From contig NZ_JAFFZE010000004.1 of the NCBI RefSeq assembly GCF_025165815.1, positions 496,001 to 560,000 on the forward strand: a stretch of 64,000 nucleotides of DNA, in the 5' to 3' direction. The notes below the pieces were generated by a model that saw only the letters and a list, made by a program, of their open reading frames with translations, did no database searches and had not been told where the DNA came from. Below are positions 11,123 to 20,283 of the stretch, piece after piece. This DNA comes from Actinophytocola gossypii (lineage in GTDB: Bacteria > Actinomycetota > Actinomycetes > Mycobacteriales > Pseudonocardiaceae). The number at the start of each line of letters is the position of its first letter. Within the stretch, counting starts at the first letter, position 1. Position numbers and translations under genes: made by a program.

Positions 11123-12118
11123 TCAACGAACGATGACGGTCCGGCCGTCCCGCGGCGGGACGAGCTCGCCGATCACCGGTGCGCCGGGGATCTCGCCCGC
11201 GATCAGCAGGCCGCCGGAGGTCTGCGCGTCGGCCAGGAGCAGGGCGGTGTCCTCCGGCACGGTGTCCAGGGCGGCGTGCGGACGGACCCAGTCGAGGTTG
11301 CGGCGGCTGCCGCCGGGGACGAAGCCGTCGCGCACCGCCTCGTGCGCGCCGTCCAGGTACGGCACCGCCGCCGCGTCGACCACCGCGCTCACTCCGCTGG
11401 CGCGGGCCAGCTTGTGCAGGTGACCGAGCAGGCCGAATCCGGTGACGTCGGTGGCGCAGGTGAGGCCGGCGGCGACGGCGGCGGTCGAGGCGGCCGCGTT
11501 GAGCGTGACCATCACCTCGACGGCCGCCGGGAAGCGCTCCCCCGTCGCCTTGTGGCGGGAGTTCAGCACACCGAGCCCCAGCGGCTTGGTCAGCGACAGC
11601 GGCAGGCCGGCCCGCCCCGCGTCGTTGCGCAGCAGGCGGTCGGGATGTCCGAAACCGGTCACCGCGAGCCCGTACTTGGGTTCCGGGTCGTCCACACTGT
11701 GCCCGCCGGCGAGGTGGCAGCTCGCCGACGAGCAGACGTCCATGCCGCCGCGCAGCACCTCGGCGGCCAGCTCCATCGGCAGGATCTCCCTCGGCCACGC
11801 CAACAGGTTCAGCGCGACCACCGGGTGTCCGCCCATGGCGTAGACGTCGGAGAGCGCGTTCGCCGCGGCGATGCGGCCCCAGTCGTAGGCGTCGTCGACG
11901 ACCGGGGTGAAGAAGTCCGTGGTGGCGATCAGCGCACGGTCACCGTCCACCCGCACCACGGCCGCGTCGTCGCCGTCGTCGAGGCCGACCAGGAGCTCAC
12001 CGGCCGGCTGCGAGGCGGGCGCGCCGTTCAGTCGCCGGACCACCTCCTCGAGCTCGCCCGGCGGGATCTTGCAGGCACAGCCGCCGCCATGGGCATATCG
12101 GGTCAGCCGGTAGCTCAT
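11123..12118 (-). CDS. selD: selenide, water dikinase
   Basis: The protein has 331 residues and makes selenophosphate from selenide and ATP, the selenium donor for Sec-tRNA synthesis. The N-terminal active-site motif GGGCACKIPP (Cys14, Cys16, Lys17) is present with cysteine, not selenocysteine. The metal and ATP segments DDAAVVRV, TTDFFTPVVDD, AGGHSVDDPEPKYGLAV and TDVTGFGLLGHL are all visible. ATG 12118 (MSYRLTRYAHGGG) is the natural start. The open frame continues upstream only as antisense of tRNA-Sec and selA. It is divergent from selC-selA-selB, and the complete Sec machinery is thus contiguous. Confidence 0.95.
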   Translation of the reverse strand: MSYRLTRYAHGGGCACKIPPGELEEVVRRLNGAPASQPAGELLVGLDDGDDAAVVRVDGDRALIATTDFFTPVVDDAYDWGRIAAANALSDVYAMGGHPVVALNLLAWPREILPMELAAEVLRGGMDVCSSASCHLAGGHSVDDPEPKYGLAVTGFGHPDRLLRNDAGRAGLPLSLTKPLGLGVLNSRHKATGERFPAAVEVMVTLNAAASTAAVAAGLTCATDVTGFGLLGHLHKLARASGVSAVVDAAAVPYLDGAHEAVRDGFVPGGSRRNLDWVRPHAALDTVPEDTALLLADAQTSGGLLIAGEIPGAPVIGELVPPRDGRTVIVR

Positions 12119-12160: not shown

Positions 12161-12252
12161 GGAGGCGCTTCCGGCCTGGTGACCGGCGCGGTCTTCAACA
12201 CCGTTGAACGGCGGACACCGTCGTTGGCGGGTTCGATTCCCGTTCGCCTCCG
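12161..12252 (+). tRNA. selC: tRNA-Sec (anticodon TCA)
   Basis: I folded this by eye. The acceptor is GGAGGCGC/TCGCCTCC, with 7 perfect pairs plus a C-T mismatch at the eighth (bacterial tRNA-Sec has 8), and discriminator G at 12252. The D arm is CCGG...CCGG. The anticodon stem GCGGT/ACCGT carries loop CTTCAAC with anticodon TCA. The long variable arm AACGGCGG-ACA-CCGTCGTT pairs over 8 bp, and the T arm is GCGGG-TTCGATT-CCCGT. CCA is not encoded. The 92-base length and 8-bp variable arm are diagnostic of tRNA-Sec. It lies between selD and selA, only 24 bases before selA. Confidence 0.93.
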
Positions 12253-12275
12253 CGTGGGGGCGGGGATGTGCCGGC

Positions 12276-13565
12276 GTGGGTGATCCGCGGCGGCACATCC
12301 CGCGCACCGATCTCCTGCTCGCCGAACCCCCGCTCGCCGACGCCGCGCGGGTACTCGGGCAGGCGCTCGTGAAGGCCGCCGTCGTGGCCGCGCAGAACCG
12401 GGCCCGCGCCGGCGAGATCGGCGTCGACGCGATCGTCGAGCACGCGATCGCCACCCTGCCCCCGACGGCGTCGACCCTACGGCCGGTGCTCAACGCGACC
12501 GGTGTCGTCGTGCACACGAACCTCGGCCGCGCGCCGCTGTCGGCCAGCGCCCTCGACGCCGTGCGCGCCGCCGGCGGCAACACGGACGTGGAGTTCGACC
12601 TGGCGACCGGGCAACGGGCCCGCCGGGGGCGCGGCACGCTCGCCGCCCTGGCCGACGTGGTGCCGGACGCCGAGGCGGTGCACGTGGTCAACAACAACGC
12701 CGCCGCACTGCTGCTGTGCGCGCTCGCGCTCGCCGACGGCCGGGAGATCGTGCTGAGCCGGGGCGAGCTGGTCGAGATCGGCGACGGGTTCCGCATCCCC
12801 GAGCTGCTCGCCGCGACGGGGGCACGGCTGCGGGAGGTGGGCACGACCAACCGCACGACGGCCGCCGACTACGCCGCGGCGGTCGGTCCGGACACCGGGT
12901 TCGTGCTGAAGGTGCACCCGTCGAACTTCCTGGTCACCGGGTTCACCGCGGCGGCGGGCATCGCGGAGCTGGCCACGCTCGGCGTGCCGGTCGTCGCCGA
13001 CATCGGCTCGGGCCTGCTCCGCCCGGACCCGCTGCTGCCGGATGAGCCGGACGCGACCACCGCGCTGCGAGCGGGCGCCGCGCTCGTGACCGCGAGCGCC
13101 GACAAGCTGCTCGGCGGTCCGCAGGCCGGGCTGTTGTTCGGGCGGCGTGACCTCGTCGAACTGCTTCGCCGACACCCGACCGCCCGCGCGCTGCGCGTCG
13201 ACAAGCTCACCCTGGCCGCGCTCGAGGCGACGTTGCGCGGGCCGGTGCCGCCGGTCCGGCGGGCCATCCACGCGGACCTCGCCGCGCTGCGAACCCGTGC
13301 GACGCGGCTCGCCGAGGAGCTCGGCCGCCGCGGGGTCGAGGTGACGGCGGTGGACTCCGTCGCGGTGGTCGGCGGCGGCGGAGCGCCCGGCGTCGAGCTG
13401 CCGAGCGCCGCGCTGTGCCTGCCCGCCCGGCACGCCGAGCGGCTCCGTACGGCCGACCCGCCGGTCGTCGGGCGGGTGGAGCGCGGCCGGTGCCTGCTCG
13501 ACCTGCGGACCGTGCCGCCGGAGGACGACGGACGGCTGCTGGAGGCGGTGGCGCGGTGCACGTGA
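12276..13565 (+). CDS. selA: L-seryl-tRNA(Sec) selenium transferase
   Basis: The protein has 429 residues. It converts Ser-tRNA(Sec) to Sec-tRNA(Sec) using selenophosphate and PLP. GTG 12276 (VGDPRRHIPRTDLLL) is chosen because GGGGA lies 9 bases upstream and the frame before it runs into the tRNA gene. The N-terminal tRNA-binding domain (1-60) precedes the fold-type I core with LNATGVVVHTNLGRAPLS, EFDLATGQRARRG, HVVNNNAAALLL and the PLP lysine Lys277 in SADKLLGGPQAG. Length and motifs are those of bacterial SelA. It overlaps selB by 10 bases, so translation is coupled. Confidence 0.96.
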   Translation: MGDPRRHIPRTDLLLAEPPLADAARVLGQALVKAAVVAAQNRARAGEIGVDAIVEHAIATLPPTASTLRPVLNATGVVVHTNLGRAPLSASALDAVRAAGGNTDVEFDLATGQRARRGRGTLAALADVVPDAEAVHVVNNNAAALLLCALALADGREIVLSRGELVEIGDGFRIPELLAATGARLREVGTTNRTTAADYAAAVGPDTGFVLKVHPSNFLVTGFTAAAGIAELATLGVPVVADIGSGLLRPDPLLPDEPDATTALRAGAALVTASADKLLGGPQAGLLFGRRDLVELLRRHPTARALRVDKLTLAALEATLRGPVPPVRRAIHADLAALRTRATRLAEELGRRGVEVTAVDSVAVVGGGGAPGVELPSAALCLPARHAERLRTADPPVVGRVERGRCLLDLRTVPPEDDGRLLEAVARCT

Positions 13566-15292
13566 TCGCCACCGCGGGGCATGTCGACCACGGCAAGTCC
13601 ACCCTGGTACGGGCACTGACCGGAATGGAACCCGACCGGCTCGCCGAGGAGCGCCGTCGCGGGCTGACCGTCGACCTCGGGTTCGCCTGGACGGCGCTGG
13701 CCGGCGAGGAGCTGGCGTTCGTCGACGTGCCGGGCCACGAGCGGTTCGTGCCGAACATGCTCGCCGGAACCGGGCCCGCACCCGCCGTGATGTTCGTGGT
13801 CGCCGCGGACGAGGGCTGGCAGGCCCAGTCGACCGAGCACCTCGCCGCGCTCGAGGCGTTCGGGGTGCGGCACGGCCTGCTGGTCGTGACCAAGTGCGAC
13901 CGCGCCGATCCGGCGGCCGCCACCGCGGTGGCCGGGGAACGGTTCGCCGAGGGCGGGCTGGCCGGGGTGCGCGCGGTGGCGGTGAGCGGGCGGACCGGCG
14001 TCGGGTTGCCGGAGCTGCGTGCCGCGCTGCTGGCGCTGGCCGCCGAGCTCCCCGTCCCGGACACCACCGCGGACGTGCGACTGTGGGTCGACCGCGCGTT
14101 CACCATCCGGGGCGCGGGCACGGTGGTGACCGGCACGCTTGGGGCGGGCACGATCCGCGTCGGTGACGAGCTCGTGCTCGCCGGCCGACGGGTGTCGGTG
14201 CGCGGGCTGCAGGCACTCGGTCGGCCCCACGACGAGGTGCGGGCCGTGGCACGCGTCGCGGTGAACCTGCGCGGTGTCGACCGGCGCCACGTGCGGCGCG
14301 GTGACGCGCTGCTGACCCCGTCGGCGTGGCGGCTCACCCGCGAGGTGGACGTCCGGCTGCGCGGCGACGCCGCCGCCGACCTCCATCGCACGCTGGTGCT
14401 CCACGTCGGCGCGGCGGCGACGCCGTGCCGGGTTCGTCCACTCGGGACGGACAGCGCCCGCCTCTCGCTCGCCGCCGGGCTGCCGTTGCGGGCCGGCGAC
14501 ACCGGCCTGCTGCGGGACCCCGGCGAGCACCGGATCCCCGACGGCGTCGAGATCGTCGACCCCTGCCCGCCACCGCTCACCGGGCGCGGCGCGGCGCGAA
14601 CACGAGCCGAGGAGCTGGCGGCGGCGGCCCGTGCGCACGTCCGGCGACACGGCGCGGTGCGCGCAGCCGACCTGCGCGTGCTCGGGTGGTCCCCGACCGG
14701 GATCCGGATCGGCGACTGGGTGGTCGACGAGGCGCTGCACCGCGACCTGCCGGGCCGGATCACCGCGCGGTTCACCGCATGGTCGGCGGCCGACCCGGTC
14801 GCGGCCGGAATGCCGGTCGAGGTGCTGCGCCGCGAGGTCGGCGTGCCGCGACCGGTCCTGCTCGCCGCGCTCGCCGAGACGGAGCTGACCGTCCACAACG
14901 GGCTTGTCTGGGCCGGGGACAGCGGGCCGTCGTTGCCGGAGACGGTGGCGCGGCCGCTCGCGGAGGTCGAGACCCGGCTCGCGGCGGAACCGTTCGGCGC
15001 GCCGGAATCCGCGTACCTCGCCGAGCTGGGACTCGGCCCGCGCGAGCTGGCGGCCGCCGAGCGCGCCGGCAGGCTGGTTCGGCTGACGGGCTCCGTGGTC
15101 CTCGCGCCGGACGCGCCGGCGCGCGCCGCCGAGGTTCTCGCCGCGCTGCCGTCGCCGTTCACGGTCGGCGACGCCCGGCGCGCGCTGGGCACCACCCGCC
15201 GGGTCGCGGTGCCGCTGCTGGAACACCTCGACGCGAACGGGGTCACCCGCCGCCACGACGACGGCACCCGCACGATGCGCCGCGGCGACTGA
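13556..15292 (+). CDS. selB: selenocysteine-specific elongation factor
   Basis: The protein has 578 residues. It is the GTPase that delivers Sec-tRNA to UGA codons followed by a SECIS hairpin. GTG 13556 gives VHVIATAGHVDHGKST, with the G1 loop at residues 8-16. An alternative GTG two codons on would remove only two residues. G3 is DVPGHE and G4 is TKCD (VVTKCDRAD). Beta-barrel domains II and III follow (FTIRGAGTVVTGTLGAG), and the last about 190 residues are winged-helix repeats that bind SECIS, ending with RRALGTTRRVAVPLLEHLD. The protein is slightly shorter than E. coli SelB (614 residues, recalled). No selenoprotein gene was recognised in the window, so its targets are elsewhere. Confidence 0.96.
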   Translation: MHVIATAGHVDHGKSTLVRALTGMEPDRLAEERRRGLTVDLGFAWTALAGEELAFVDVPGHERFVPNMLAGTGPAPAVMFVVAADEGWQAQSTEHLAALEAFGVRHGLLVVTKCDRADPAAATAVAGERFAEGGLAGVRAVAVSGRTGVGLPELRAALLALAAELPVPDTTADVRLWVDRAFTIRGAGTVVTGTLGAGTIRVGDELVLAGRRVSVRGLQALGRPHDEVRAVARVAVNLRGVDRRHVRRGDALLTPSAWRLTREVDVRLRGDAAADLHRTLVLHVGAAATPCRVRPLGTDSARLSLAAGLPLRAGDTGLLRDPGEHRIPDGVEIVDPCPPPLTGRGAARTRAEELAAAARAHVRRHGAVRAADLRVLGWSPTGIRIGDWVVDEALHRDLPGRITARFTAWSAADPVAAGMPVEVLRREVGVPRPVLLAALAETELTVHNGLVWAGDSGPSLPETVARPLAEVETRLAAEPFGAPESAYLAELGLGPRELAAAERAGRLVRLTGSVVLAPDAPARAAEVLAALPSPFTVGDARRALGTTRRVAVPLLEHLDANGVTRRHDDGTRTMRRGD

Positions 15293-15298
15293 GCCGGG

Positions 15299-16735
15299 TC
15301 AGCCGTTGAGTGGCTTCGCCGCGTGGACGGTCACGGTCACGTCGGCGATGTCGGCGCGGCTCACCCGGTCGTCGCAGTTGTCGGCGAGTACCGCGATCTG
15401 CTCCTTCACCGGAAGCCGTTGCCACTGCGGGGAAACCGGGCCCCGATGTCCGGGAAGTGCCGGTTCGTCCTCGGTCACCACGAGCTTCTCGGCGATCGCT
15501 CCCGCGGCGGTGACACCGCCTCGGACCGAGCCGGACCACTGGCGCACGCCGTAGAACGTCGAGTCGGGACCCGGGTTGATCCACTGGGAGACAAGCAGTT
15601 GGGCGTTGCCCAGCGTCGAGTACGGGTGCACCACCGGCGCGTAGAGATACGGCGCCTGGGACCAGGTCACGTGGGTCCTCGGCGCCGACCACAGGCCGGT
15701 CGGGTACGGCGCCGTCTGGGTGACCGCTCCGCGTCCACCGTTGAGGAACGACAGCACGACGCGCCCCTCGATGACCTCGGCCGCGATCTCACCGATCGCC
15801 TCGGACGGGCTCGGCGCGCCGATGATCGGCGTCGACGGGCCACCCGGCCGCCAGTCCCAGCGCCCGCCGCCGTCCGCGCCCCAGAACTGGTACTGGCTCG
15901 GCTCCCACATCCTGTTCCAGTGCACCCGCATGAGGTGGATGCCGCCGCCGTTCCACCGGCCCTCGTTGGTGCCGTAGATGTAGACCCAGTCCTCGCCCGG
16001 CCACATGATCATGGCGTTGTTCTGGAAGTGCGACCAGAGGCCCTGGTTCCAGAAGTCCATGTTCTCCCGGTTCGTCTCCAGGTTCCAGGTGCGTTGCCAG
16101 TGCTCGGCGTGCGTGTCGGTCGAGGTCCACTGGCGGGAGTACCAGGTGCGCCAGCTGCCACCCGGGCTCGGGATCCCGCCCTGGTCCGGGATGGCCCAGT
16201 CGCGTACGCCGAACGTGGTCATCAGGTAGCGGCCGTCCGGCAGGTGGATCAGGTCGTTGGGGATCTCGGTGACCACCTGGCCCGGCTCGTTCCGCGCCAC
16301 GTGGGGATCGGCGTGGTGGTAGTCGATCATCTGCTTCGCGCGGGCGCCACCGATGCAGTTGTCCCAGCGGATCCCGGTGTGGATGTCCGCGTTCGACTGC
16401 CGCAGCCCGACCGGGGACCGCCAGCCGGTGCTGTTCTGCGGCACCGGCTGGTCGAACGTGTCCCCGAAGAGAGTGATGCAGTAGCCGTGGTTGGTGCGCG
16501 CGGTGAAGCCGAGATCGGTGCCGCGGAAGCCGAACCGGGCGGTCTCCTCGCCGGTGAGGTCCTTGACGTGGCCGGCGCGGGCACCGGGCGAGGTGCTGGC
16601 CGAGGCACCGCCCATACCGGCGACCAGGCCGCTCGCGCCGAGCGCCAACCCGGCGGCGCCCTTGAGGAACGTCGCCCGGCTCACCCCCCGCGCCGACAGG
16701 TTCGGATCGCTACCGGTGTCGTCGTCGCGCCGCAT
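15299..16735 (-). CDS. exported DUF4185-like protein
   Basis: The protein has 478 residues. ATG 16735 is chosen because AGGGGAG sits 4 bases before it; an upstream ATG at 16768 has no such site. The N-terminus reads GVSRATFLKGAAGLALGASG, a Tat-like signal in which the second arginine of the usual SRRTFLKG is alanine, so export may use Sec or a relaxed Tat signal. The mature part is Trp/Gly-rich with phrases like YCITLFGDTFDQP, GVRDWAIPDQGG and GTNEGRWNGGGIHLMRV, which I recall from DUF4185, a five-bladed glycosidase-like fold with no assigned reaction. It is convergent with selB (6-bp gap) and divergent from the MauE/MauD-type operon. Confidence 0.75.
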   Translation of the reverse strand: MRRDDDTGSDPNLSARGVSRATFLKGAAGLALGASGLVAGMGGASASTSPGARAGHVKDLTGEETARFGFRGTDLGFTARTNHGYCITLFGDTFDQPVPQNSTGWRSPVGLRQSNADIHTGIRWDNCIGGARAKQMIDYHHADPHVARNEPGQVVTEIPNDLIHLPDGRYLMTTFGVRDWAIPDQGGIPSPGGSWRTWYSRQWTSTDTHAEHWQRTWNLETNRENMDFWNQGLWSHFQNNAMIMWPGEDWVYIYGTNEGRWNGGGIHLMRVHWNRMWEPSQYQFWGADGGGRWDWRPGGPSTPIIGAPSPSEAIGEIAAEVIEGRVVLSFLNGGRGAVTQTAPYPTGLWSAPRTHVTWSQAPYLYAPVVHPYSTLGNAQLLVSQWINPGPDSTFYGVRQWSGSVRGGVTAAGAIAEKLVVTEDEPALPGHRGPVSPQWQRLPVKEQIAVLADNCDDRVSRADIADVTVTVHAAKPLNG

Positions 16736-16800
16736 TCCACTCCCCTGACCTGAGTACGGGTCCGCCACCAGACCTTCGTCGTGATCTGGCAGCAGGTACG

Positions 16801-16904: not shown

Positions 16905-17603
16905 GTGACGACCTCCGTGGTGCACCGGGCGCTGGACGGGCGGCGGTACGAGCTCAGCGGGTCACTCGACCTCGGGTACCCGGGCACGTCCTCGGTGCGG
17001 GTGACCGTGCGCGGCCGGATGTACGAGCTGGTCGCGGGGGTGAGTGGGCTCGCAGAGGAAGTGGCCTCGGCACTCGGCGTGTCCGGGTTCGACGAGAACC
17101 TGCGGTTCGCCGGCGGCACCCTGCTCATCGGCCGCACCCACCGCGTCGAACCGGGTTCGCGGATCGCCGAGGACATCATGGTCGCCGTGTGGCGCGGGCG
17201 GCGACACTGCCTGATCATCCACTTCTACGGCGCGTCCACCACCACGGCCGTCGAGGTGCTGGACACCCTGGGCATCGTCGAGCACGACGACGGGATCGCC
17301 CTGCGCCCCACCGCCGGCAGCGCCCTGGTCTCCCCGGCGGCGGTGGTCAAGGAGGTGCCGTCGCTCGGCCTGCTGGAGCTGACCGTGCCCTCGTCTCCGC
17401 AGGCGACGCGGCTGCCGGGCTGGAAGGGCAGGGCGACCCGTTCCGGCGAGCTGTTCTCCGACCGCCTGTCCAACGGCGATCCGTACTTCGTGCTCGCCGG
17501 TGCCGACACGTGGACGACCGTGCTCCCGCTCGCCGACACCGATCTCGCGCGGGTGCCCGAACTCGTGGACCGGCTCGACACCCGCCTGCTCGGCGACCGG
17601 TGA
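16905..17603 (+). CDS. unknown protein, first gene of the MauE/MauD-type operon
   Basis: The protein has 232 residues. GTG 16905 follows a GGGGGGT run; a second GTG at 16890 is possible but lacks spacing. No signal peptide or membrane helix is visible. The sequence is beta-rich with YELSGSLDLGYPGTSSVRVT, HCLIIHFYGASTTTAVEVL (following the phrase VAVWRGRR) and KGRATRSGELFSDRLSNGDP. I do not recognise a family. It is followed by only one base before the MauE-like gene and so is almost surely co-transcribed with it. A cytosolic partner, chaperone or modifying factor for the exported Cys-rich product is possible, but that is only context inference. Confidence 0.75.
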   Translation: MTTSVVHRALDGRRYELSGSLDLGYPGTSSVRVTVRGRMYELVAGVSGLAEEVASALGVSGFDENLRFAGGTLLIGRTHRVEPGSRIAEDIMVAVWRGRRHCLIIHFYGASTTTAVEVLDTLGIVEHDDGIALRPTAGSALVSPAAVVKEVPSLGLLELTVPSSPQATRLPGWKGRATRSGELFSDRLSNGDPYFVLAGADTWTTVLPLADTDLARVPELVDRLDTRLLGDR

Positions 17604-17604
17604 G

Positions 17605-18126
17605 ATGGTGTTCCCGGTCAGCGTCGCGGCCAACGTGGTCCTGGTCGTGCTCGTGATCGCGGTGGCCGAACGGCTCACGGCGCCCCGCGTGCTGCCCGCC
17701 GCGATGACCGCGCACCGCGTCGTGCCGGGCCGCGCGGTCCGCCCGGTGGCCGTCGCGGTGACGGCCGCGGAGGCCGGGCTCGCCGTGCTACTGCTCCTCG
17801 CGCCGTCCCCGATCGTGCTCGCGGGCGCCGCGGTGCTCTTCGCCGCGTACGGCGGCTACGCCTGGCACGTCACCGCGAGCGGTCGTGGCGGGCCGTGCGG
17901 CTGCGGCGGGGCCGAGGTGCCGATGAACCACTGGGTGGTGGGTCGCGCGGTCGTCCTCGCCGCGCTGGCGGCGGTCGCATCGGCGGCGCACGCCGCGGTG
18001 CTACCGCTGACCCGGTTCGACTCCCGGCTGGTGTTGGTCCTGCTCGCCGCGGTCACGATCGCGGTCCTGCTCTGGCACCTGCCCGCCGCCATGACCCAGC
18101 ACAATTCCGAGGAGGCGGAACGGTGA
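17605..18126 (+). CDS. MauE-like membrane protein
   Basis: The protein has 173 residues with about four to five membrane helices (MVFPVSVAANVVLVVLVIAV, VAVAVTAAEAGLAVLLLLA, IVLAGAAVLFAAYGGYAW, VGRAVVLAALAAVASAA, VLVLLAAVTIAVLL). The motif GGPCGCGGAEVPMNHWVVGR, a CxC-type loop followed by a helix, is the hallmark of the MauE/DoxX-like redox-associated family. In methylotrophs MauE together with MauD is needed for the disulfide-rich light chain of methylamine dehydrogenase (known). GTG/ATG alternatives exist at 17605 and 17608. It overlaps the MauD-like gene by 4 bases. Confidence 0.82.
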   Translation: MVFPVSVAANVVLVVLVIAVAERLTAPRVLPAAMTAHRVVPGRAVRPVAVAVTAAEAGLAVLLLLAPSPIVLAGAAVLFAAYGGYAWHVTASGRGGPCGCGGAEVPMNHWVVGRAVVLAALAAVASAAHAAVLPLTRFDSRLVLVLLAAVTIAVLLWHLPAAMTQHNSEEAER

Positions 18127-18608
18127 GCTTCACGACCAGCGCGTTGATCGTCACGTGGGTGGCCCTGTTGCTGCTGGCCTTCGTGGTCGCCGGGCTGGTC
18201 CGCCAGGTGCACGCGCTGTCCGCCGGCACGGGCGCACGGCCGGTCGCCGCCGGGCTCAGGACCGGGGACCGGGCCGACCTCGACGCGCTGCCCGCCGACG
18301 CGCCCGCCGTGCTGCTGTTCCTGCGCGCGACGTGCCACACGTGTGTCGAGGCGCTGGCGGAGACCGTCGAGGTGGTGACGGGCCGGCTGCCCGTGCTCGC
18401 GCTCTACGAGGGACCGGCGCCCGAGACACCGCCCGAAGTGGTGGCCCTCGGCGACCGCGCCCACCTGTTCGCCACCTATGGCGCGCTGGCCACCCCCTTC
18501 GCGGTCCTGGTCGGCCAGGACGGCCGGATCACCGCCGCCGCCCCGGTCGGCTCGAGGGCGGCCGTCCGCGAACTGCTCGCTCCCGTCAGCGTGATGGAGG
18601 TCCCGTGA
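18123..18608 (+). CDS. MauD/TlpA-like membrane-anchored thioredoxin
   Basis: The protein has 161 residues. One N-terminal helix (ALIVTWVALLLLAFVVAGLV) anchors a thioredoxin-fold domain in which Cys71 and Cys74 form the redox motif RATCHTC. The cis-Pro region appears as ALATPFAVLVGQDG. The domain should lie outside the membrane, catalysing disulfide exchange in exported proteins. MauD is the family in which this arrangement is paired with MauE (established for methylamine utilisation). GTG 18123 overlaps the stop of the MauE-like gene, and the stop overlaps the GTG of the Cys-rich gene, so the three are translationally coupled. Confidence 0.82.
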   Translation: MSFTTSALIVTWVALLLLAFVVAGLVRQVHALSAGTGARPVAAGLRTGDRADLDALPADAPAVLLFLRATCHTCVEALAETVEVVTGRLPVLALYEGPAPETPPEVVALGDRAHLFATYGALATPFAVLVGQDGRITAAAPVGSRAAVRELLAPVSVMEVP

Positions 18609-19540
18609 CCAGCGATCTGTCCACCGGAGTGCCGCCGCTGCGCGGCACCGACCCCGGCATGCCCGTCGAACCCCGGTCCCGCACCAGGAAGCCGCACTGG
18701 GCGGGCTGGGCGCCGACGAGGCGAGCCGTGCTGCGCGCCGGCGGCGTGGCGGGCCTGACCCTGCTCGGCGGCGTGTTCCCGTCAGTGCGCCGGGCGGTCG
18801 CCGACGGCTACGACATCTACCCGCGGTGCCCGTCCTACGCCTCGGACCACGACTGCTCGCCGGGCTGCGGGCCAAGCACGGTCTTCGCCGACGCGTGCGT
18901 CACCTCCGGGGAGAACACCGGTTTCCACAAGGACGACCAGGTGACGTGGCGGCTGCGGCCCAACGCGTGCCTGTCCGGCAGCTACGACGGCTGGATGTGG
19001 CGCTACGACCAGGCGTGCGGGGCGTGCTCCTGCCACATCGAGCGGCGCTGCCACGACGGCTACCGCAGGACCGGCTCCGGCTGGGTCAACTCGATCTGCC
19101 GGTGGACGACCGAGTGCGGCTGCCCGTCGACGGTGAACTGGCCGACCGTCGCCGCCGGCGACCGGGGCGCCACCGTCACCGCGATCCAGTACCTGGTCAC
19201 CCACCACGGATTTCCGACCGAGCCCGACGGGGTGTACGGCCCGGCGACGGCACAGGCGGTCCGGGACTTCCAGACCGGGAGCGGGCTCCCGGTCTCCGGC
19301 GAGGTGTCCGCCGACACCTGGCCGTCCCTGGCGGCCACCGCCCGCCGCGGCGACTCCGGCGAGCACGTGCACGCCGTCCAGGCGCAGCTCAACGCCTACG
19401 GATACCGGCTCGTCGTGGACGGCGTCTTCGGTGCCGCGACGGTGGCCGCGACCACGGACTTCCAGCGCCAGAACCGGTTGACCGCGGACGGGATCGTCGG
19501 CCCGGTCACCTGGCGGACCATGACCGGCGGCGCGGTGTGA
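18605..19540 (+). CDS. Tat-exported 12-cysteine protein with two peptidoglycan-binding domains (MauA-like?)
   Basis: The protein has 311 residues. A twin-arginine signal (PTRRAVLRAGGVAGLTLLGG, Arg39-Arg40) is followed by a compact domain (about 68-175) with exactly 12 cysteines at 75, 84, 88, 98, 122, 138, 141, 143, 149, 165, 171 and 173 and several tryptophans (115, 130, 132, 160, 167). Two PG_binding_1-type domains follow (about 185-242 with VYGPATAQAVRDFQ; 249-308 with VFGAATVAATTDFQRQ). Methylamine dehydrogenase light chain (MauA) also has 12 cysteines in six disulfides, two TTQ tryptophans, a long Tat-type signal, and MauE/MauD partners (known). The cysteine order is suggestive but homology is not proven by eye. 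It is likely a cell-wall-bound, disulfide-locked protein. Confidence 0.85.
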   Translation: MTSDLSTGVPPLRGTDPGMPVEPRSRTRKPHWAGWAPTRRAVLRAGGVAGLTLLGGVFPSVRRAVADGYDIYPRCPSYASDHDCSPGCGPSTVFADACVTSGENTGFHKDDQVTWRLRPNACLSGSYDGWMWRYDQACGACSCHIERRCHDGYRRTGSGWVNSICRWTTECGCPSTVNWPTVAAGDRGATVTAIQYLVTHHGFPTEPDGVYGPATAQAVRDFQTGSGLPVSGEVSADTWPSLAATARRGDSGEHVHAVQAQLNAYGYRLVVDGVFGAATVAATTDFQRQNRLTADGIVGPVTWRTMTGGAV

Positions 19541-19698
19541 GCGAGCCGGGAGCGGTGCTCCGCCGCGGGCTGACCCACCCGGTGGCACCGCTGGTCATGG
19601 TTCCCGCGTTGGTCGCGCTGGTGCTGGCGGGCTGGGCGGTCGCGGCGTGGGCGGTGCTCGGCGGGCTGGCCGGGTACACGCTGTCCGGCTCCGTTTGA
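19537..19698 (+). CDS. small membrane protein of the MauE/MauD-type operon
   Basis: The protein has 53 residues. GTG 19537 overlaps the stop of the Cys-rich gene by 4 bases. It is one long hydrophobic span, perhaps two short helices (HPVAPLVMVPALVALVLAGW, then AVLGGLAGYTLSGSV), after a basic N-terminus (LRRGLTHP). Its small size and exact coupling to the operon argue that it is a real gene. Its role could be as an accessory subunit of the membrane machinery. It ends with TGA at 19696, and the same frame stays open after it into the next gene. Confidence 0.6.
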   Translation: MSEPGAVLRRGLTHPVAPLVMVPALVALVLAGWAVAAWAVLGGLAGYTLSGSV

Positions 19699-19800
19699 AC
19701 CAGGAACAGCGCGTTCGCGCTGACCTCGTCAGGTTGGCGGGGTAGGACACGGCAGGGCGTCGCGCTCCTGCTGTTCGACACGGGTCTGGTACTGGGTGCG

Positions 19801-20283
19801 GTGCTGAGCGCACTCGTGCTGTTCGTGGTGAGCGGGCTCGCCACGCCGGTGCCGGAGCCGGTGCGACACGGGATCGTCGTCGCGGCCGCCGTTCTCGGCG
19901 TGCTTCGGGACGTGGGAGCGGTGTCCTTCCCGCTGCCGCAGAACGCGCGCCAGGTGCCCCAGGACGTGCTGCGGCGCGACGTGGTTCGCGGCGCGCTGCG
20001 GTTCGGGTTCGAGATGGGGACCGGGGTGCGCACGTACGTCTCGTCGACGGTGCCGTACGTGCTGGTGGTCGCGCTGCTGCTGACCGCGCCCGGCATCGCG
20101 ACCGCGATCGCGGCCGGCGTCGGTTTCGGGCTCGGCCGCGCCCTCACCCCGACCACGCGCTACGCCAGCGGCGACGGGGAGACCTGGGATGATGCCCTGC
20201 ACGCGCACGTGCGGGGCATCAAGGTCGCGGCCGGGCTGGCCGTGGCCGCGGCGCTCGTGTTCCTGCTGTTCGCTGCCCGGTGA
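19801..20283 (+). CDS. membrane protein of unknown function, last gene of the operon (start uncertain)
   Basis: The product has 160 residues from GTG 19801. Helices are VLSALVLFVVSGLA, HGIVVAAAVLGVLRDVGAVS, TYVSSTVPYVLVVALLLTAP and IKVAAGLAVAAALVFLLFAA. A conserved-looking cytosolic phrase is PLPQNARQVPQDVLRRDVVRG followed by ALRFGFEMGTGVRTYVS. The coding character clearly begins earlier (QGVALLLFDTGLVLGAVL in the same frame), but no ATG, GTG or TTG lies between the TGA at 19696 and 19801. The true start may be a CTG (19720 or later), or the GTG with a shortened first helix. Its position suggests a membrane partner of the MauE/MauD-like pair. Confidence 0.65.
   Translation: MLSALVLFVVSGLATPVPEPVRHGIVVAAAVLGVLRDVGAVSFPLPQNARQVPQDVLRRDVVRGALRFGFEMGTGVRTYVSSTVPYVLVVALLLTAPGIATAIAAGVGFGLGRALTPTTRYASGDGETWDDALHAHVRGIKVAAGLAVAAALVFLLFAAR

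Follow-up and report, generated by a model that had tools for sequence, protein, structure and literature searches.

The 64,000-nt window analysed here (Actinophytocola gossypii, NZ_JAFFZE010000004.1, positions 496,001-560,000; all coordinates are window-based) contains a compact cassette of genes, designated A to F, that lies just downstream of a set of selenocysteine (Sec) genes (Table 1). An open reading frame listing of the window confirms the reading frames of A to F, with A and B one base apart and 4-base overlaps at B/C, C/D and D/E. An earlier note on this DNA had described six genes running head to tail; the frames and the order hold, and the number of genes falls to five, E and F being one (hereafter EF). 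Judged from sequence, the cassette is composed of a MauE-like protein with a CxC motif (B), a MauD-like protein with a CxxC motif (C), a MauF homologue with a predicted Sec residue (EF), a conserved protein of unknown function (A) and a Cys-rich protein of the twin-arginine translocation (Tat) type (D). Its nearest relatives were found in Actinophytocola xinjiangensis, A. algeriensis and A. xanthii, and a further one in Streptomyces otsuchiensis. The conservation of the cassette is not a product of chance, because the A to F order recurs in these four other species. Gene A matched nothing in Pfam or NCBIfam, and its candidacy as MauJ was rejected (hhalign 0.1).

Table 1. Coordinates of the cassette, of the elements within EF and of the upstream selenocysteine genes in the window.
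Feature	Position	Strand	Description and basis
Gene A	16905..17603	+	Conserved protein of unknown function, 232 aa; first cassette gene in the ten nearest loci
Gene B	17605..18126	+	MauE-like membrane protein, CxC (Cys98, Cys100); PF07291, hhalign to MauE
Gene C	18123..18608	+	MauD-like, thioredoxin-like protein, one membrane helix, CxxC (Cys71, Cys74); hhalign to MauD
Gene D	18605..19540	+	Twin-arginine (RR) signal, 12-Cys domain (about residues 68-175), two PG_binding_1 domains, proposed client; Pfam, Cys positions
Gene EF	19537..20283	+	Predicted selenoprotein homologous to MauF, 248 aa, Sec54; read-through translation, alignments
UGA codon predicted to be read as Sec	19696..19698	+	Same column in 21/21 sequences; aligned with the MauF Cys
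SECIS-like hairpin	19723..19743	+	RNAalifold and pair counts; apical loop starts with an invariant G; -11.9 kcal/mol
selD	11153..12112	-	Selenophosphate synthetase; profile match, E 3.9e-158, to S. otsuchiensis selD, itself named from sequence and not via a family search
tRNA-Sec	12161..12253	+	Anticodon UCA; ARAGORN; Rfam RF01852, 72.8 bits (gathering 47) at 12161-12251
selA	12204..13565	+	Open reading frame, named from sequence; relatives near the cassette in other genomes
selB	13415..15292	+	Sec-specific elongation factor, start uncertain; TIGR00475, 256.9 bits (cut-off 242.25)

E (19537-19698) and F (19801-20283) share one reading frame whose sole interruption is the UGA codon. Read through as Sec, this frame gives a 248-residue membrane protein that is conserved before and after the UGA across the five species, and the 34 codons from the UGA to the first possible start of F are themselves conserved as protein, with a ratio of nonsynonymous to synonymous changes (pN/pS) of 0.46 in the E/F frame and of 1.21 and 1.26 in the other two frames. 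A narrow EF profile built from the five nearest species was run over 394 genomes of the class (labels beginning with G, C and L denote genomes, contigs and loci). It matched 21 places in 16 genomes, a count that is a lower bound since the profile missed at least G344. Exactly one TGA was present in 18 places. At 17 of these, among them the place in the window, it stands at the motif SGS(V/T)-U-(T/S)xNS; the 18th, a further copy in the window's genome that carries a frameshift, has its TGA elsewhere and was left out of the count of UGA at the site. Of the three places that lack a TGA, one is a fragment of the frameshifted copy, one (in G318) matches partially and one (in G405) is a Cys form. 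Together with the four species named above, the 17 places make up 21 sequences (L068, L071 and L073 being near-copies), each of which has one in-frame TGA and never TAA or TAG. Homologues with Cys at the Sec position comprise three MauF sequences, L074 and five loci from the phylum.

We conclude that EF is almost certainly a single gene, with UGA as the predicted Sec codon. That E and F are separate genes, the UGA being a real stop and F restarting downstream, is hardly credible: translation table 11 does yield two open frames and candidate restart codons occur 6-35 codons past the UGA across the 21 sequences, but protein sequence is conserved ahead of the restart codon, the stop is invariably TGA, homologues with Cys at the site are full length, and a conserved hairpin lies downstream of the UGA. 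Over the 57 columns that follow the UGA in the 21 sequences, RNAalifold predicts this single hairpin, which pairs columns 30-36 with 40-46, is located 32-33 nt past the UGA, shows compensatory changes in 4 of its 7 pairs and has a loop opening with an invariant G (G37). In the near-identical helix 29-35/41-47, 92.5% of cells pair, with a covariation score of 0.288, compared with 42-59% of cells and scores of at most 0.163 when the partner is slid by 1 to 3 columns. The model of the bacterial selenocysteine insertion sequence (SECIS), as given in the available excerpts of PMC13188914, has a G in the first two loop positions, a distance of 16-37 nt after the UGA and an energy of -7.5 kcal/mol or lower, and the window hairpin agrees with it in distance, loop and energy.

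Selenoprotein synthesis calls for SelA, SelB, SelD and tRNA-Sec in the same genome, and genes for all four were found just upstream of the cassette, where the earlier note had overlooked them. The listed start of selA (12204) overlaps tRNA-Sec (12161-12253), and the true start is therefore downstream. Of the loci fetched from the other species, those from A. algeriensis and S. otsuchiensis also contain a tRNA-Sec; none was found in the A. xinjiangensis and A. xanthii loci. Across the class sample, tRNA-Sec scored at least 60 bits in 101 of 394 genomes, including all 14 with UGA at the site (hypergeometric 2.6e-9, not corrected for relatedness), with a limit of 60 bits that was picked after the scores were known, in the gap between 64.2 and 55.2 bits. 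At Rfam's limit of 47 bits, 162/394 genomes match; at E<=0.001, 387/394 genomes and 13/14 controls do so, and the weak matches are thus probably other tRNAs. SelB was found in the same 14 genomes, in 13 by TIGR00475 and in G604 separately. Its score is below the 242.25 cut-off in G580, G602, G663 and G671, and within the EF-Tu-like range in G602 and G663, where the window selB profile confirmed it (L073, L071).

A wider profile run over 296 Actinomycetota genomes (the phylum sample) matched 53 places in 50 genomes, 43 of these places with a TGA inside, Cys forms and the window's genome being included in these numbers. The residue at the site, which could be read in 28 of 29 phylum loci (L110 does not cover it), is Sec in 23 and Cys in 5, within a motif that is mostly WSPUG or WSPCG, as in MauF, and in a minority GPUG, SPUG or DPUG, the W missing. 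At E<=1e-9, tRNA-Sec was detected in 35 of 40 genomes with UGA and in a single one (G779) of the six Cys-form genomes, the others being G405, G700, G738, G759 and G811 (Fisher p 0.00026 for UGA versus Cys-form genomes, both samples together). These counts of 40 and 6 exclude G861, G899, G932 and G950, in which the match misses the site and among which only G899 has tRNA-Sec; for the 40, the exact-site UGA was read in fetched loci, and elsewhere an in-frame TGA within the match stands in for it (two in G724). A 51-row tree, with 42 Sec and 9 Cys rows and without L071 and L073 as near-copies of L068, places three Sec/Cys changes on supported branches.

MauF is a little-understood protein of methylamine dehydrogenase assembly. 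Using reference mau clusters taken from plasmid records of Paracoccus denitrificans, Methylobacterium and Indioceanicola, we obtained domain E-values of 7e-17 to 3e-11 for EF against the three MauF sequences, values that refer to a database of those three sequences, and an hhalign probability of 96.9% over 169 columns. Sec54 aligns with Cys79 of P. denitrificans MauF (motif WSP-C-G), and the Sec/Cys site is one of seven invariant columns in the joint 23-row alignment of EF and MauF; a PQxxxQVP motif is common to MauF and window EF, not to all 23 rows. EF is thus very probably a MauF homologue in which Sec would replace the invariant cysteine of MauF. Two of the eight relatives scanned, both Sec members, pass Pfam cut-offs of the DsbD/CcdA family: L091 with 29.5 bits on PF02683 (cut-off 27.1) and 29.9 on PF13386 (cut-off 24.9), and L097 with 27.4 bits on PF13386. 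The EF and MauF-like sequences scanned passed no NCBIfam cut-off and matched no NCBIfam selenoprotein model. As read from these alignments, Sec-MauF is a new predicted selenoprotein family, residing within a cassette of the Mau maturation type.

The MauE-like and MauD-like identities proposed in the earlier note are borne out. Gene B scores 67.5 bits on PF07291 (cut-off 27, E 1.8e-18) and reaches 97.6% against MauE in hhalign. Gene C scores 18.8 bits on TIGR02661 (E 9e-4) and does not reach the equivalog cut-off of 188.6; a 16-row profile of its family gives 99.0% against MauD, and we classify C as MauD-like rather than as MauD proper on the strength of these comparisons. The CxC of the MauE-like proteins is kept in 13/13 rows and the CxxC of the MauD-like proteins in 16/16. 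Profiles from the five species (E<=0.01) found MauD-like genes at 11, MauE-like genes at 10, gene A at 11 and gene D at 5 of the other 16 class loci with UGA, and reading of the gene calls revealed D-like RR-signal proteins with 6-8 Cys beside seven more of the 16. Of 12 contexts chosen from the 50 phylum genomes with a match, 10 have both MauD- and MauE-like genes within 5 kb, and 9 encode a Cys-rich RR-signal protein belonging to either of two additional kinds (W-type and H-type). The earlier note had also suggested a survey of co-occurrence, and its outcome was favourable. MauE- and MauD-like genes accompany the 12-Cys gene D at all 10 loci with a D profile match next to EF (the window, L004-L007 and L059-L063). 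Of 76 genomes from the genus to which G580 belongs, 4 carry D and 5 carry EF (each EF with one TGA), with no D lacking EF. The fifth EF, without D, is at a contig start in a genome that is 82% complete.

Protein D has its 12 cysteines at residues 75-173, an RR signal recognised by eye and two PG_binding_1 stretches identified by Pfam, all as first described. No Tat model of Pfam or NCBIfam matched window D; its relative L068 passes TIGR01409 (19.4, cut-off 16.7) and two others match the Pfam TAT model below cut-off. The peptidoglycan-binding domains are absent from the D relatives L061-L063, which makes the "wall-anchored" character proposed earlier a trait of lineage rather than a general feature. 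The earlier note had further likened D to MauA, the methylamine dehydrogenase light chain with a tryptophan tryptophylquinone (TTQ) cofactor. That analogy was reasonable in that MauA of P. denitrificans, in our alignment, also has 12 Cys and an RR signal, and the proposal of Mau-type machinery beside a Tat-type Cys-rich protein stands, extended by the MauF homologue. The MauA-like client is not supported. A search of the Cys-rich domain, suggested in that note, found nothing in Pfam, nor did one in the PDB, and the one NCBIfam match is far below cut-off. Against MauA, the mature domain gave an hhalign probability of 0.3 with 5 columns aligned, and when the signal was included the Tat signal alone aligned. 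MauA is defined by two conserved Trp that form TTQ and by six conserved disulfides. In the 17 rows of D relatives, the window included, neither feature is conserved: 10 have 12 cysteines, the remainder have 6-8 over their full length, and invariance among Trp and Cys is limited to one Trp-x-Trp and two Cys, a third Cys being kept in 16. A cross-link of the W57/W108 type would accordingly be without a conserved pair. The W-type and H-type Cys-rich partners were likewise tried as MauA and not accepted (best stretch CPPGS, E 0.032).

In the mechanism that we propose, D would leave the cell via the Tat route and would need specific disulfides. The MauD-like protein, anchored by a single helix, would trade thiols with D through its CxxC. 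MauF would have the membrane fold of DsbD/CcdA, its one Sec occupying the position of the first cysteine in DsbD, and would pass reducing equivalents to or from MauD via a mixed selenosulfide. MauE, with its CxC, would connect these steps to a further membrane or quinone pool. Together the three proteins would form the disulfides of D and proofread them, with selenium rendering the exchange fast and reversible, and mature D would bind the cell wall in the Actinophytocola and Streptomyces lineages. We consider it probable that the operon is a Mau-type maturation machine for an exported Cys-rich protein, with a Sec-containing MauF, and somewhat less firmly we favour the making or correcting of disulfides in D as its task. 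We attach low confidence to any particular function of D.

Several observations weigh against this reading. Both the role of D as client and the direction in which electrons would flow are drawn from gene order and from the mau clusters. At 4 of the 16 class loci no Cys-rich partner was recognised, L117 and L121 have no MauD or MauE inside 5 kb, and no tRNA-Sec was detected in 5 of the 40 phylum-sample genomes with UGA (G703, G825, G832, G871 and G922). Regarding the hairpin, sliding the partner by +2 and +3 gives 4 and 5 pairs changed on both sides, versus 4 for the hairpin itself; the outermost pair, 29-47, does not form in 10 of the 19 distinct rows; and L069 folded alone takes another fold. 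Window EF and MauF pass no Pfam DsbD model, so that the proposed fold derives from two distant members, and structure models from five-row alignments were unusable (predicted local distance difference test scores of 44.6 for EF and 36.3 for D). DsbD works through a two-cysteine relay. Apart from the Sec, window EF contains no cysteine, and such a relay therefore cannot run inside EF.

Three other accounts of D and its neighbours can be set against maturation of an exported Cys-rich protein. Were D a MauA-like light chain with a Trp-derived cofactor, matured by MauE and MauD, the company of MauF, MauE and MauD with an RR-signal 12-Cys protein would be as expected; the missing profile similarity to MauA and the poor conservation of Cys and Trp described above make this very improbable, and no MauB, MauG, amicyanin or MauJ was recognised among the open reading frames around the cassette, though no dedicated search for MauB or MauG was made. 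DsbD and CcdA export reductant. The cassette could accordingly be reductive or protective, MauF-Sec sending electrons outward so that D stays reduced and could, for example, scavenge metals or oxidants, and the DsbD/CcdA fold of L091 and L097 fits such a role. The trio of the mau clusters, however, accompanies MauA, whose cysteines are all in disulfides, and two invariant cysteines in D offer little for a conserved metal site; we judge this account unlikely. D might also be the precursor of a ribosomally synthesized and post-translationally modified peptide (RiPP), with MauE, MauD and MauF as tailoring enzymes, as suggested for related Streptomyces clusters. In the available excerpts of PMC7794033 (decRiPPter), MauE is encoded in three Streptomyces candidate RiPP families and MauD in one of them, with predicted precursors of at least 8 Cys. 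Window D, however, is large, with an RR signal and folded wall-binding domains, and no protease or exporter was noticed in the cassette, though none was searched for. We regard a RiPP precursor as quite unlikely.

The closest described organization is mauFBEDA of P. denitrificans (L080) and Methylobacterium (L081), which has homologues of the same MauF, MauE and MauD and in which MauA occupies, in the order E-D-A, the place held in the cassette by the RR-signal 12-Cys protein. The cassette differs from it by Sec instead of Cys in MauF, by a protein D not detectably related to MauA, by a gene A for which no counterpart was found, and by the MauB, amicyanin, MauJ and MauG that were not recognised around it. 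The decRiPPter candidates also place MauE, and once MauD, beside a gene for a Cys-rich protein, and the excerpts of PMC7794033 speculate that MauE forms disulfides and report no other mau orthologues in those genomes; MauF, selenocysteine and Sec machinery are not mentioned in them. The statement of the earlier note that it knew of no such system has thus in part been anticipated, as regards MauE/MauD beside Cys-rich genes. TsoB (NF045694, PMC13188914), which resembles a rhodanese/DsbD fusion, is a DsbD-like selenoprotein, as EF may be, and differs from it by two Sec residues (UxxxxU), the rhodanese fusion and a three-selenoprotein operon. An assignment of EF as a Tso protein was dropped as there was no NCBIfam match. 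Compared with the DsbD/CcdA family (PF02683, PF13386), the EF relatives carry Sec in WSPUG near the first helix, and window EF, itself below detection by these models, has a single Sec and no second cysteine. The selenoprotein family table of PMC13188914 (2026) contains no MauF, MauE or MauD family, and a count of "mau" and of "methylamine" in that paper gave 0 for both. A term search in PMC9312934 gave 0 occurrences, and PMC2474590, in its accessible part, reports mau genes in Methylacidiphilum. Literature searches returned, judged by title and abstract, no relevant paper on selenocysteine and methylamine dehydrogenase, nothing related for MauE together with selenocysteine or for Actinobacteriota selenoproteins, and nothing related among the matches listed for MauE and selenoprotein or for TsoY; those listed for MauF mostly used these letters as an acronym.

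The predicted Sec site bears on annotation, as the standard code splits Sec-MauF at the UGA into two genes, and it provides MauF with a testable active residue and a likely fold. Sec-MauF may also explain why actinobacterial Sec machinery is kept without a Sec-containing formate dehydrogenase. In a survey of selenium use limited, among formate dehydrogenase models, to TIGR01553, 7 of 17 genomes with UGA were over the cut-off and 3 of these 7 had a TGA in the match (G066, G537 and G604); none was seen in the window's genome, the gap between its two matched pieces included. DsbA/DsbB and VKOR are known disulfide systems, and the cassette hints at one apart from them for Tat-exported proteins. 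We give about even chances to the broader hypothesis that MauF(Sec/Cys)-MauD-MauE is a general, hitherto unrecognised disulfide system in the envelope of actinobacteria, dedicated to Tat-exported Cys-rich proteins, of which methylamine dehydrogenase maturation would be one specialised case, and that Sec-MauF is a main reason why many Actinomycetota keep their Sec machinery.

Additional observations concern neighbours and relatives of the cassette. A 489-aa secreted-looking protein with an RR signal is encoded at 15299-16768 on the minus strand, between selB and the cassette. In G405, a Cys-rich protein with LGFP repeats (L074:4596-5951), whose gene call counts 24 Cys, lies beside MauE, MauD and the Cys-form MauF; its stretch CCSINGGINQCPPGS resembles by eye the CPPGT region of MauA, a likeness that profiles do not confirm, and a PDB search of its Cys-rich part was without a match. 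The second EF relative in the window's own genome, frameshifted and perhaps a decaying copy, is located at G000:C47:476367-476750 (L076:8368-8751, minus strand), and no cassette partners were recognised within the 17 kb fetched around it. A second kind of RR-signal Cys-rich protein, with the pattern CGHxYTTxSCPHP ... DCCS ... RINGD, adjoins MauD/MauF/MauE at L122:4649-5233, L123:4296-4823 and L124:4912-5448. Further MauE-family genes occur outside the window in its own genome, at C50:29242-29625 (L002) and C49:265389-265634 (L003).

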